Assembly: GCA_947632245.1 (NCBI GenBank)
Contig: CANRON010000006.1
Location: 1 to 36,809, forward strand
DNA: 36,809 nt
Origin: an uncultured Ignatzschineria sp.
GTDB taxonomy: Bacteria > Pseudomonadota > Gammaproteobacteria > Cardiobacteriales > Wohlfahrtiimonadaceae
Direction: 5' to 3'
The number at the start of each line of letters is the position of its first letter. The first letter of the stretch is position 1. Shown piece by piece: positions 6,258-25,528 of this stretch. The translations under genes and the position numbers were made by a program. Below the pieces are notes generated by a model that worked only from the letters and a program-made list of their open reading frames with translations, searched no databases and had not been told where the DNA came from.

Positions 6258-8612
6258 ATGAATGAAAAAAAGAAACTCCTAACCACCGGCGAACGCATTA
6301 ACCGCTCAGTTGCATACCTAATGCGACTTCTCATCTCTGTAATCGTGATTGTTGCACTCATTACAATTCCAATTTTTGGTTACTTCTTGGTGAAAGCGGA
6401 TCATGAAATTACGCCGGAGTTTAAAAATCGACAGTGGGCGTTGCCTGCGCGCGTTTATGCAAGACCATTAGAGCTATATAGTGGAAAAAACCTCAAGCCA
6501 AGCGATATGCAGCAAGAGCTAGAGTGGATTTTATACCGCCCCTCAAAATCGCTCAGCCAACCAGGCACGTATCACTTTAATGAAGAAAAAAACGCTGTCA
6601 GCGTACATACTCGGCCATTTACTTATAGCGATGGTACTGAAAAGTCCCAAATTATTGACGTACAATTTAGCCGAAATGAGATTAAATCTATTAAAGATCG
6701 TAATACGGGAGATGAAATCTCTTTAACCCGTATCGAGCCGCTGATGATTGCGTCAATCTATCCGAATCATAATGAAGACAGAATCCTCCTAAAACGCGAA
6801 GAGATTCCGCCGATGCTTATAGATACGCTATTAGCAATGGAAGACCGCTCTTACTACGATCACTTCGGCATCAACCCAAAGGGTATTTTACGCGCGCTTA
6901 TTACCAACTTTAAAGCGGGTAAAAATGTGCAAGGGGGCTCAACGCTGACTCAGCAGCTCATCAAAAACTACTTTTTAACCAGCGAAAAAACATTAGAGCG
7001 TAAAATTCAAGAGATGTTCTTTGCGATTGTTCTCGATTGGCGCTTTGATAAAGATGAGATATTAGAAGCTTATGTGAATGAGATCTATCTCTCGCAAGAT
7101 GGCGATCGGGCGATTCATGGCTTTGGTCTTGCAAGTGAGTTTTTCTTTGGAAAACCCGTCAATGAATTAACGATTGGTGAAATCGCAACGCTCGTTGCGG
7201 TAATCCCTAGCCCTAGCAGCTACAACCCTCGCAGAAACCCAGAGATCGCGATCAAACGCCGCAATTTAATCATTGATGTTCTTGTCGAGCAAAACCTGCT
7301 CAGCCCTGAAGATGCGATCATCGTCAAAGCTGAACCCCTCGAAATTCTCGACAACCCGCCGCCCGCAAAAACAAAATTCCCAGCCTTTATTGAATTAGTT
7401 TACAAACAGCTCAAAGCTCAATACTCTCCTGAACAATTGAATTCTGGTGGTCTGCGTATCTTCACAACGCTCGATCCTATCGCTCAGGATTATGCCGAAA
7501 AATCAGTGATCAGTACACTTGCAAGAATTGAAAAAGATCGCGGTCTTTCTCCCAACATCCTTCAAGGCTCAATTGTGATTGCTGAAAACAATACCGGTGA
7601 AATCGCGGCAATTGTTGGCGATCGGAATGTTCGCCAAGCAGGATTTAATCGCGCATTAAATACAAATCGTCCTATCGGCTCGCTCGTTAAGCCATTTGTC
7701 TATCTTCGCGCACTCGAAGAGCCAAGCAGATATTCGCTCGCAACGCCCCTTGATGATGAGTCCCCGATTGAGCTCCCTGTGGGCGGGAAAATCTGGAGCC
7801 CGAATAACTATGATAGAAGATTACATGGTTGGGTTCCCTTGATTACAGCGCTTGCAAAATCATATAACTTACCCGTTATACGTGTAGGTTTAGATATCGG
7901 ACTCGAAAATGTGGTGGATACTTTATATCGACTAGGCGTGAATCCTATCCAATATAATATCCCCGCAGTCCCGGCATCACTACTGGGATCAGTGGATCTC
8001 CCTCCGATCGAAGTGGCACAAATCTACTCCACAATTGCTAACCAGGGATATTACACACCATTGCGCTCTATCCGGGAAGTCACTGATAGTGAAAGTAAGC
8101 TTCTAGATCAGGCGGGAGTAGATCCTATCCAAGCCATAGAGCCTGCACCTAACTATCTCATTACAGATGCAATGATGGATGTTGTTAACCAAGGCACTGC
8201 CGGATCACTACGCAGTCATATAGGCAATGTAAAAGCTGCAGCTAAAACCGGAACTACTAATGATTATCGCGATAGTTGGTTTGCAGGATTCACAGGCAAC
8301 TATACGGCTGTATCGTGGGTGGGCCGTGATGATAACAAGCCTATTCATCGTCTTACAGGAACATCAGGCGCACTACCTATTTGGGCAAATGCCATGAAAA
8401 ACTTACACCTTGAAAGTATCCACCACGATCGTCCCGCGAATGTCATTGATGTTACGGTAGATTTATCAACAGGATTACTCCCGCCGGTGAATCCTTGTCC
8501 TGATACCAAGATCCGCACCCTTCCCTTCATTAGGGGCTATGAGCCAACTTATGCGAGTGAATGTTATTACGGTCCTGCCGGCACGGGATCTGGTGGCTTT
8601 ATTTTTGATTAA
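6258..8612 (+). CDS. mrcB: Penicillin-binding protein 1B (bifunctional glycosyltransferase/transpeptidase)
   Basis: This 784-residue class A PBP polymerises lipid II and cross-links peptidoglycan at the outer face of the inner membrane. Order: cytoplasmic N-terminus, one membrane helix (about residues 15-45), a UB2H domain (ALPARVYARPLELYSGKNL), the GT51 glycosyltransferase (catalytic E195 in MEDRSYYDHFG, then GGSTLTQQLIKN and RKIQEMFFAIVLDWRF), and the transpeptidase. The transpeptidase motifs are S475-x-x-K478 (GSLVKPF), S535-Y-N537 and K663-T-G. The UB2H domain identifies PBP1B rather than PBP1A; in E. coli this domain binds the activator LpoB. The ATG at 6258 is preferred to a TTG at 6240, although neither has a strong ribosome site. 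A TPR lipoprotein gene follows after 124 bases and may encode its activator. Confidence 0.96.
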   Translation: MNEKKKLLTTGERINRSVAYLMRLLISVIVIVALITIPIFGYFLVKADHEITPEFKNRQWALPARVYARPLELYSGKNLKPSDMQQELEWILYRPSKSLSQPGTYHFNEEKNAVSVHTRPFTYSDGTEKSQIIDVQFSRNEIKSIKDRNTGDEISLTRIEPLMIASIYPNHNEDRILLKREEIPPMLIDTLLAMEDRSYYDHFGINPKGILRALITNFKAGKNVQGGSTLTQQLIKNYFLTSEKTLERKIQEMFFAIVLDWRFDKDEILEAYVNEIYLSQDGDRAIHGFGLASEFFFGKPVNELTIGEIATLVAVIPSPSSYNPRRNPEIAIKRRNLIIDVLVEQNLLSPEDAIIVKAEPLEILDNPPPAKTKFPAFIELVYKQLKAQYSPEQLNSGGLRIFTTLDPIAQDYAEKSVISTLARIEKDRGLSPNILQGSIVIAENNTGEIAAIVGDRNVRQAGFNRALNTNRPIGSLVKPFVYLRALEEPSRYSLATPLDDESPIELPVGGKIWSPNNYDRRLHGWVPLITALAKSYNLPVIRVGLDIGLENVVDTLYRLGVNPIQYNIPAVPASLLGSVDLPPIEVAQIYSTIANQGYYTPLRSIREVTDSESKLLDQAGVDPIQAIEPAPNYLITDAMMDVVNQGTAGSLRSHIGNVKAAAKTGTTNDYRDSWFAGFTGNYTAVSWVGRDDNKPIHRLTGTSGALPIWANAMKNLHLESIHHDRPANVIDVTVDLSTGLLPPVNPCPDTKIRTLPFIRGYEPTYASECYYGPAGTGSGGFIFD

Positions 8613-8736
8613 TAATGCAATAAAGCTTGCATAGAAACTCCTACTGTATTACCGCAATAATCTGTGGTAAATTATAGCGACCACATATGCGTGTCAAATT
8701 TACTACACGCAACAGAATTTGTTTAAGGATATTTTC

Positions 8737-9429
8737 GTGAAAAGAAATGCCATTTTTTTATTCAGTCTTTTAGTATTAACAGCCTGTGCTACCACCGCAC
8801 CTGAAGGTGCTCGCGTTCGTCCTGTACAAGGACAACCAACCGGACCTTCATTCCAAGGTGATGGTGCGACAAAAGCATATGCGTTACAAGACATCCCTGT
8901 TCAAGCTCCTCAATCAAATGAGGTCGGATTCCTAGGTACACAAAATACTCAGAATCCGGATGGTTCACCCGTCTTCCCTGCACCAACGTCTAATTGGCCT
9001 GTTGTGAATAACCAAAACCCAACAGCCGCAATAACGCAACCTGCACAGACACTTCCGCCAATACAAACGCCTTCAAGCTCAAATATTCCGGAAGTTGTGA
9101 CACCAGCTCAAACAAAACCTGCAGTACAAACTCCCCCTGCTCCAACGGGTGGAAATGCAGTCAAAGTGCTTCTTGATGATGCACGCAAAGCTGTCCAAGA
9201 AAATCGCCTAGATAAAGCAGCAAGCTCTCTTGAGCGCGCTGTAAGATTAGAACCTAGAAATGCGAGTATCTGGTATGACTTAGCGCAAATTCGTCTACAT
9301 CAGAAGAACTATGCAGCTGCAGAGCAAATGGCAAACAAATCTATTAGCTTCACGAAGAACGAAGATCTCATTAAACGAAATCAACAAATTATCACTGCGG
9401 CACAAAGTGCACGATCAGCTGGCAACTAG
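8737..9429 (+). CDS. TPR lipoprotein downstream of PBP1B (LpoP-like candidate)
   Basis: A 230-residue lipoprotein. It starts at a GTG with AAGGA seven bases upstream, which beats an in-frame TTG at 8719. The signal peptide MKRNAIFLFSLLVLTAC ends in lipobox LTAC with C17; the next residue is Ala, so outer-membrane sorting is expected. A long disordered linker rich in Pro, Gln, Thr and Asn (about residues 55-138) reaches to a C-terminal TPR pair (about 141-205: DDARKAVQENRLDKAASSLE, then RAVRLEPRNASIWYDLAQIR). In Pseudomonas aeruginosa the PBP1B activator LpoP is a TPR-containing lipoprotein encoded beside the PBP1B gene. The same architecture and position make this a strong LpoP candidate. No similarity to enterobacterial LpoB is apparent. 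The role is an inference; an unrelated TPR lipoprotein is possible. Confidence 0.72.
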   Translation: MKRNAIFLFSLLVLTACATTAPEGARVRPVQGQPTGPSFQGDGATKAYALQDIPVQAPQSNEVGFLGTQNTQNPDGSPVFPAPTSNWPVVNNQNPTAAITQPAQTLPPIQTPSSSNIPEVVTPAQTKPAVQTPPAPTGGNAVKVLLDDARKAVQENRLDKAASSLERAVRLEPRNASIWYDLAQIRLHQKNYAAAEQMANKSISFTKNEDLIKRNQQIITAAQSARSAGN

Positions 9430-9632: not shown

Positions 9633-12600
9633 ATGAAGCGGATGCTAATTAACGCAACTCAACAAGAAGAGATGCGAGTTGCACTTGTCGATGGACAACA
9701 CCTCTTTGATTTAGATATTGAAAACGCGGCAACAAAACAGAAAAAAGCGAATATCTACAAAGGAAAAATCACACGTATTGAGCCCTCTTTAGAAGCTTGC
9801 TTTGTCGATTATGGATCGGAGCGTCATGGCTTCCTCCCTTTTAAAGAAATTTCACGAGACTACTTTAAAAATCCAAGCGACCACCAACTTGCCATTAAAG
9901 ATCAGCTTGAAGAAGGTCTTGAGCTTATTATCCAAGTTGAACGTGAAGAGCGCGGCAATAAAGGCGCGGCACTGACAACGTTCATTTCTCTCGCGGGTCG
10001 TTATTTGGTATTAATGCCAAACAATCCGCGCGCAGGCGGTGTATCTCGTCGTATTTCAGGCAAAAATCGCGCAGAAATCCGTGATGCGATGTCTGATTTA
10101 GTGATTCCTGAAGATATGGGTCTTATTGTCCGTACTGCGGGAATGGGTCGCGTTACGGAAGAACTTCAGTGGGATCTTGATTATCTCGTCATGCTTTGGG
10201 AAGCGATTTTAGATGCTGGAAAAAATCCTGCGCCCCTTCTAATCTTCCAAGAGAGCAATATTATCATTCGTGCGCTTCGCGATTACTATCGCAGTGACAT
10301 CGGTGAAATCCTCATTGATGACGAGGAAGTATTCAAGGAAGCTGAAGTATTTATCAATACAATCATGCCGCAAATTGGCGACAAGATTAAGTTATATGAT
10401 GATCAGATTCCGCTCTTTACCCGCTTCCAAGTTGAATCTCAAATTCAGACAGCATACGAGCGTAATGTTCGCCTTCCTTCAGGCGGTGCGCTAGTATTTG
10501 ACCACACAGAAGCCTTAGTTTCGATTGATATTAACTCTGGCCGCTCCACAAAAGGTGCGGATATTGAAGATACAGCCCTTAACACCAACCTTGAAGCCGC
10601 TGAAGAGATTGCCAGACAATTGAAGCTTCGCGATTTAGGGGGGCTTGTTGTCATCGACTTTATTGACATGCTCGATAGCAAAAATCAGCGTAAAGTTGAA
10701 ACTGCGCTGCATGATGCGCTTGCTTCGGATCGTGCACGTATTCAAGTTGGTCAGATTTCTCGCTTTGGTCTTCTTGAAATGTCCCGTCAACGTCTACGCC
10801 CATCACTTGATGAAACTTCGCATATTGTCTGCCCCCGCTGTGAAGGCCAAGGGACAATTCGTGATACTAAATCACTTGCTTTAGGCATCTTGCGCCTTAT
10901 TGAAGAAGAATCGCTCAAAGAGCGTACATCTGAGCTTGTTATCCAAGTTCCAGTGAATGTTGCTGTGTATCTATTAAATGAGAAACGCACAGATGTGGAA
11001 GATGTAGAAAAACGCCTCAAAGTTCGCGTTATTATCATCCCAGATAGCAATTTTGAAACACCGCATTTCAAAATGACACGCTACCGTGTAAATGATGAAG
11101 AAGTTGGCAATGACAGCAGCAGCCACATCATCAAAGAAGAACTCACGATTGATGATATTCGTAACCAGGCGGTTATTCAGAATAAAAAAATGATGGAGAA
11201 ACCCGCAGTATCAGGGATTTCACCCATCGCACCACCCCCAAAAGTGGCTGAAAAAACAGAACAAGTAAAAGAAGCCATGCCAGTGAAGGCGGATGGATTT
11301 TTGACAACGATTATCTCTTTCTTTAAAGATCTTTTTGCCGGCGCAGATGAAAAGAAAGACGCTCAAAAACAATCAGAGAAAGAATCTCGCGATAATAATA
11401 GAAACAACCGTAACAACAATAATCGCAATAACAATCGCACGAATAATCGTAACAACAATAATCAACGTCAACGTAATCAACGCCATAATCATCCTAGCCG
11501 CAATACGGTCGAAACGGTAGAGCGCGAAGTCGATACGAATACGGCATTTGCACAAACAAATGCAGCGCAACCTGAGCCTGCGAACCCTCGTAACAATCGC
11601 CGCAATAATCAAGAGCGAAATAACAACCAAGAGCGCGGTAATCAGCAGAATCAACGTCGTAACAATCGTCAAAATAACGAGCAAGGACAAGATAAGGCGC
11701 AGGATAATAATCCACGTAATACGCAAACGGATGCGAATGACAATAACAATCGAAACCGTCAACCGCAGAATCAAGATGCCCAAAGCCGTGATACCAATAA
11801 GCCTGATAATGCACCTCAAGGGCGCAATCGTAACCGTGACAACAGAGAGTCCCGAGGTGAAAACAGGGATACTAGAGAACTGCCGACTAAAGAGCAAGCC
11901 CAAGTAGTGACTACCCCAGAGACTCCTACTCAAGAAGTCTCTAACGAGAAAACACAAGAGGAGCGAGCACCGCGTCAACGCAATCGTCGCAATCGCAATG
12001 ATCGCAATAACCCTAAACCTCAAAATGCTGCAAAGGTAAATGAGAGTGGTGAAGAGATCATTGAGGTTACTGTTGAAAATGAAACGCGCGAACGCACTAT
12101 CAGAAAAGGACGTCCACGTATTCCTAAAGCGGCTGTAGCTGCTGTATCAACGGATACGGCAAATCAAGCAGAGACTGTCATTGCGCCCACTGTGAAGGGA
12201 AATGATGCCGAGAAAGGAAAAGAAGTGGTTACAACTGCTCCTTCTGAAACACCAAAACAGCCAACACAACAAGCGCAATCAACGGATACACAAACCGTAT
12301 CTCCTGATACTCAGGCATCTGTGGCAAAATCGGTAGAAAACATTACACCAGAAAAAGCATCTGAAAAAACAGAGGGTGTTGCGGATCAATCGTCAAGCGC
12401 ACCTAAAGAGCCAATAGCTAAGGTGGTTGCAGTTGAGACAGTGAAAACAGAGATGGCTGAAAAAGCTGAAACACCTGTTGCGGCTATTCCCGATACTGTA
12501 ATGCCGGTGACTAAAACAGAAACAAAAACTGAGCGTCCAACACAAGCAGAGCCTTCATCCGTTACTCCTGAGCCAGTTCAAACAACTGTCACAGAAGAAG

Positions 12601-12764
12601 TGAAAGAGATTATCCCTGCCTCTATCAAGCCAGCACCGGAAGTCGTTGCGGAATCTACGGATATTGAGCCCGTAGCTGAAGAGGTGAAAGAGAGTACAGA
12701 TACTGCCTCTAAAGTTGAATCAGAACAGCCTAAAACAAACAATGCTGAGGTTTCTAGCCACTAA
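9633..12764 (+). CDS. rne: Ribonuclease E
   Basis: RNase E is the main single-strand endoribonuclease for mRNA decay and for processing of rRNA and tRNA. The 1043-residue protein begins [20 protein letters not shown]. Its catalytic half (about 1-510) contains the S1 domain, magnesium ligands D299 (SIDINSG) and D342 (VIDFID), and the zinc-link cysteines C400 and C403 (CPRC). Each lies four residues before the E. coli equivalent. An amphipathic stretch at about 554-570 ([17 protein letters not shown]) fits the membrane-targeting helix. The remaining half is disordered: first an Arg/Asn-rich tract (about 585-800), then an acidic Pro/Thr/Glu-rich tail ending NNAEVSSH. The arginine tracts probably bind RNA; the degradosome partner sites are not recognisable. 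A GGAG ribosome site lies seven bases before ATG. The length is close to E. coli RNase E (1061) and longer than RNase G. Confidence 0.97.
11380..11850 (+). repeat. Low-complexity Arg/Asn-coding tract inside rne
   Basis: The DNA is a string of AAT/AAC and CGT/CGC codons. A 16-base unit, CGTAACAACAATAATC, occurs exactly at 11409-11424 and 11448-11463, with looser copies around 11590-11680. It encodes the RNN/RNNN-type repeats of the RNase E scaffold. The tract is likely to vary in length by slippage. It also opens long meaningless frames on both strands, which I do not call as genes. Confidence 0.75.
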
Positions 12765-25324: not shown

Positions 25325-25528
25325 TGGTTGATGCGTTTCTGTTATGTACGAGCGTTTTTATCACCATACACCTCTTGATCCTAATTTTTATACTTTGGAT
25401 GCTGGTATTAGACATTGGTGTGCAAGCTGATTAAGTTCAGAAGCCTAAAGAGGTCTACAAGGTGTCCACTTGAACGTACGCGTTCAAGAGTCTTGGTGAT
25501 TTGCAACCGACTACTACGGGGCGCATCC
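25325..25528 (+). ncRNA. ssrS: 6S RNA
   Basis: 6S RNA is the global regulator that mimics an open promoter and binds sigma70 RNA polymerase. The region aligns by eye with E. coli 6S: TTGGTGTGCAAGCTGATT versus its TTGGTGAGCATGCTCGGT, then CAGAAGCCTAAAG versus GAGAAGCCTTAAA. The 3' arm hairpin CTTGAAC-GTACGC-GTTCAAG (25469-25488) matches its CTTGAACC...GGTTCAAG, and a GCGCATC end follows. The 5' GATGCG (25330-25335) pairs with CGCATC (25522-25527) to close the rod. A run of seven T follows, with a small GCCTTT hairpin after it. Ends are approximate; TATGTA at 25313-25318 may be the -10 box. In E. coli it lies between zapA and fau, neither of which is present. It fills the 360-base gap between the comF-like and ompA-like genes. 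Confidence 0.82.

Follow-up and report, generated by a model that had tools for sequence, protein, structure and literature searches.

Identification of the lipoprotein gene as lpoP

The gene at positions 8737–9429 on the forward strand of the window, by which we mean the whole stretch of 36 809 nucleotides analysed here (part of contig 6 of a 2.02-Mb draft genome, 93% complete), is lpoP, an orthologue of the LpoP of Pseudomonas and Acinetobacter, and encodes a lipoprotein of 230 amino acids. The identification draws on the sequence and on profile, reciprocal and fold searches, and the protein displays the features of LpoP membership: a lipobox, a long disordered tether, a tandem-TPR domain resembling that of Pseudomonas aeruginosa LpoP (PaLpoP; PDB code 6W5Q) and linkage to the gene for a UB2H-bearing penicillin-binding protein 1B (PBP1B). 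We consider it very probable that the product activates the neighbouring PBP1B by docking on that enzyme's UB2H domain.

In a phmmer search of the PDB with the single sequence, the best natural protein was PaLpoP 6W5Q (7e-9); the entries ranked above it were designed consensus-TPR arrays, the scores of which are raised by repetition. A family profile built from 16 relatives matched the entire 6W5Q domain with an E-value of 1.6e-24; CDC27, at 1e-5, came second among natural proteins, and the reciprocal search of the genome with the 6W5Q domain placed lpoP at the top (4.4e-10), with the next match at 0.16. Chains of 6W5Q occupied all of ranks 1–7 in Foldseek, at 32–34% identity over about 90 residues, and rank 1 in VIA-align (Z 16.8, rmsd 1.8 over 92 residues, LpoP residues 154–246). 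Generic TPR proteins followed in VIA-align at Z 15–16, the best unrelated TPR lying approximately one Z unit below 6W5Q, and the fold by itself would therefore not decide the identity, although it agrees with the sequence evidence. The initial annotation had named the protein as a candidate LpoP-type activator and had proposed a profile comparison with Pseudomonas LpoP; the profile match, the reciprocal best match and the top position in both fold searches bear this out.

The candidate and PaLpoP also depart from the TPR consensus in common, in the motif LERA-x-R, in Arg170 (Glu in designed TPRs) and in Arg186 (Tyr in designed TPRs). These signature residues are kept in most of 123 relatives, with Arg167 found in 108, Arg170 in 110 and Arg186 in 99.

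TPRs are generic, and weak PilW and Tgl matches do appear, so the protein might be thought to belong to another known family of TPR lipoproteins (PilW/PilF, CpoB, BamD, NlpI or Tgl) and to adjoin mrcB by chance. However, every NCBIfam score that appeared was far under its cut-off, the nearest model, PilW/PilF (TIGR02521), being rejected at 23.2 bits against a curated cut-off of 154; the best match in both sequence and fold is LpoP; and the family adjoins PBP1B in 111 genomes of the class sample described below. Membership of such a family is strongly disfavoured, and we give it next to no weight. A better match to an unrelated TPR lipoprotein family, a concern of the initial annotation, was thus looked for and none was found.

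Export signal, tether and TPR domain

A signal peptide with the lipobox LTAC is encoded at 8737–8787 (forward strand), giving Cys17 as the lipidated residue and Ala18 at the +2 position. The lipobox had been read in the same way before, and Cys17 is invariant in the family alignment. By the +2 rule of Escherichia coli, Ala18 suggests that the lipoprotein is sorted to the outer membrane.

Residues 18–139 (8788–9153, forward strand) form a disordered linker, modelled by AlphaFold as low-confidence coil and rich in Pro (18%), Thr, Ala and Gln; both the composition and the low pLDDT agree with the long Pro/Gln/Thr-rich linker that had been described. The attendant worry that this linker is short for an Lpo protein did not hold. 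Approximately 127 residues separate Cys17 from Leu145, the anchor in the first helix, compared with 127 disordered residues in PaLpoP (PMC7267771), 54 residues in the tether of E. coli LpoB (PMC9593243) and a median of 48 among the class-level loci (n = 69), only three of which reach 127. Because the linker is close in length to that of PaLpoP and above the class median, reach across the periplasm poses no special problem for this lipoprotein. Across the 100 relatives in which a lipobox is clearly recognisable, linkers range from 19 to 251 residues. Linker length showed no association with the presence of LpoB (p = 0.17). Six LpoP relatives adjoining PBP1B (L051, L104, L130, L131, L133 and L143) have putative linkers of 19–22 residues, counted from the Cys to the first TPR helix; linkers of this size would make spanning from the outer membrane tight, and reach is a fair question for those relatives.

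The C-terminal TPR domain, delimited by AlphaFold, profile and fold searches, occupies residues 140–227 (9154–9417, forward strand) and corresponds to residues 154–246 of LpoP 6W5Q. It was modelled confidently as five helices, at residues 140–154, 158–171, 176–188, 192–205 and 209–227, and the Pfam models TPR_16 (5e-10) and TPR_19 (6e-9) matched above their cut-offs. The C-terminal TPR pair of the initial annotation is therefore present, but the domain is larger than that pair, having a fifth helix as well.

Genomic setting and the partner enzyme

The reading frame starts with GTG at 8737, and its stop codon ends at 9429. A ribosome-binding site, AAGGA, lies 7 nt 5' of the GTG at 8725–8729 (forward strand), and the combination of ribosome site and start, AAGGATATTTTC-GTG, is common to nine Ignatzschineria species. 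The nearest named relatives of the lipoprotein are those of Ignatzschineria, followed by Wohlfahrtiimonas and Cardiobacterium. Upstream on the same strand, at 6258–8612, is mrcB, which encodes PBP1B (784 amino acids), the presumed target enzyme; the gap between the two genes is 124 bp, so that the lipoprotein gene had been placed correctly, directly behind mrcB and with the right coordinates. Directly downstream of lpoP, at 9633–12764, is the gene for RNase E, the product of which has a low-complexity tail of several hundred residues with Asn/Arg/Gln-rich and Glu/Thr/Pro-rich parts. Elsewhere in the window, a 6S RNA was found at 25333–25525 on the forward strand (RF00013, 53.5 bits, above the gathering score).

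The mrcB product scored 796 bits against the PBP1B model TIGR02071 (cut-off 718), contains the Pfam domains Transgly, Transpeptidase and UB2H, and is 82–87% identical to its counterparts in the genus. The UB2H domain (residues 73–158, at 6474–6731 on the forward strand; PF14814, E-value 2e-19) is the presumed docking site, a role known from PaLpoP (PMC7267771). We compared the divergence of LpoP with that of the separate PBP1B domains in 71 LpoP/PBP1B pairs by distance correlation (mirror-tree); the signal was weak and did not favour UB2H over the other domains, the partial correlation being 0.12 for UB2H vs 0.28 for the glycosyltransferase domain.

Conservation of the LpoP–PBP1B pair

At the level of the order, both genes were found in 30 of 32 genomes, and the two genomes without LpoP were also without a full PBP1B; comparison of match positions showed the genes to be adjacent in 27 of the 30 pair-bearing genomes. 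We also surveyed 229 gammaproteobacterial genomes, drawn evenly from the class. The LpoP profile matched in 133 of these and PBP1B in 135, with both present in 122 (Fisher 1e-35, with no control for relatedness). LpoP lies just downstream of PBP1B on the same strand in 111 of the pair-bearing genomes, with a median gap between matches of 210 bp. Conservation of the pair, put forward in the initial annotation as a check on its proposal, is thus found well outside the genus. LpoP has been called not widely conserved (PMC7267771); our counts suggest that the LpoP–PBP1B pair is wider within the Gammaproteobacteria than is stated there.

The LpoB and LpoA families gave no match in the genome, an absence that is not certain at 93% completeness. 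LpoB was also rejected as an identity for the candidate itself, with no PF13036 among its Pfam matches. Mutual exclusion of LpoP and LpoB was looked for in the 122 pair-bearing genomes and none was seen; the two families occur together in 34 of them, and therefore the presence of LpoP alone is no proof that LpoP is the working activator. In six genomes of the sample (G057, G077, G093, G110, G154 and G202) PBP1B is present with no LpoP or LpoB match detected; these might have another activator, or none.

Truncation of the TPR domain in Ignatzschineria and elsewhere

PaLpoP has six helices, ending at residue 258 (PMC7267771). Residues 247–258 of LpoP, which form the sixth helix and so complete the third hairpin, are without a counterpart in the AlphaFold model of the candidate. 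In the alignment, each of the nine Ignatzschineria genomes has a domain cut short in this way, whereas helix 6 is kept in Wohlfahrtiimonas and Cardiobacterium. In the same nine genomes the conserved Trp of helix 5 (position 216) is replaced, by Gln in the candidate and by Arg in sister species. Both helix 6 and this Trp have been lost throughout the genus. Some more distant relatives adjoining PBP1B are also without helix 6, which is thus no requirement for membership of the LpoP family. Helix 6 has apparently been lost in other lineages too (L063, L107, L112, L124, L129, L131, L132 and L143). At the class level its loss was seen at eight of 19 loci with LpoB vs five of 50 without, an exploratory comparison (p = 0.005, uncorrected, relatedness uncontrolled). 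The sequences of the broad alignment (A2) proved too divergent to be scanned for patterns.

The loss of helix 6 and the Trp throughout Ignatzschineria lends something to the view that this LpoP orthologue binds PBP1B as a scaffold, a recruiter or a negative regulator rather than as an activator, as does the ability of CpoB, a TPR protein, to dampen PBP1B in E. coli (PMC7267771). We regard this as improbable. The sequence around helices 2–3, a region perturbed by UB2H in PaLpoP, has hardly changed within the genus; searches of the genome yielded no further known activator family; and the LpoP of Acinetobacter baumannii (LpoP-Ab), described as having two TPRs, does activate (PMC7943195).

Proposed mode of action

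The most likely role of the lipoprotein is to activate, from the outer membrane, the PBP1B encoded beside it, by homology to PaLpoP, which binds UB2H and stimulates both activities of PBP1B (PMC7267771), and to LpoP-Ab, which activates its PBP1B about 3-fold (PMC7943195). From these precedents we infer docking and activation. The lipoprotein would be exported, receive its lipid at Cys17 and, by the +2 rule, be delivered to the outer membrane; its disordered tether, of approximately 120 residues, would thread the peptidoglycan mesh, and the TPR domain would dock on UB2H of the neighbouring enzyme, close to the glycosyltransferase domain. Such docking may then raise both the glycosyltransferase and the transpeptidase activity of PBP1B at thin or stretched parts of the wall.

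The candidate shares with PaLpoP (6W5Q; PMC7267771) the lipobox, a disordered tether of approximately 127 residues, a UB2H-bearing PBP1B partner and a C-terminal tandem-TPR domain, at about 33% identity and with the LERA-x-R and Arg186 signature, but it has five helices rather than six and a Gln in place of the Trp of helix 5. A. baumannii LpoP, compared by its published description alone, is likewise a two-TPR lipoprotein encoded beside PBP1B (PMC7943195). E. coli LpoB (PF13036) is also a lipoprotein and works in the mode proposed for the candidate, reaching UB2H from the outer membrane by a disordered tether; it differs in its unrelated globular fold and its 54-residue tether, and the candidate has no PF13036 match.

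These results extend a bench-tested family of PBP1B activators to Ignatzschineria and the Cardiobacteriales, and show that LpoP adjoins PBP1B in most of the sampled Gammaproteobacteria that have PBP1B. We suggest, tentatively and with rather less than even confidence, that LpoP is the common and perhaps the ancestral partner of PBP1B in the Gammaproteobacteria rather than a lineage-specific one, and that variation in its tether (19 to about 250 residues) and third hairpin is wide enough for some members, the five-helix one among them, to dock on or reach PBP1B differently from PaLpoP. As a natural variant, the five-helix protein lends itself to testing which portion of LpoP activation requires.
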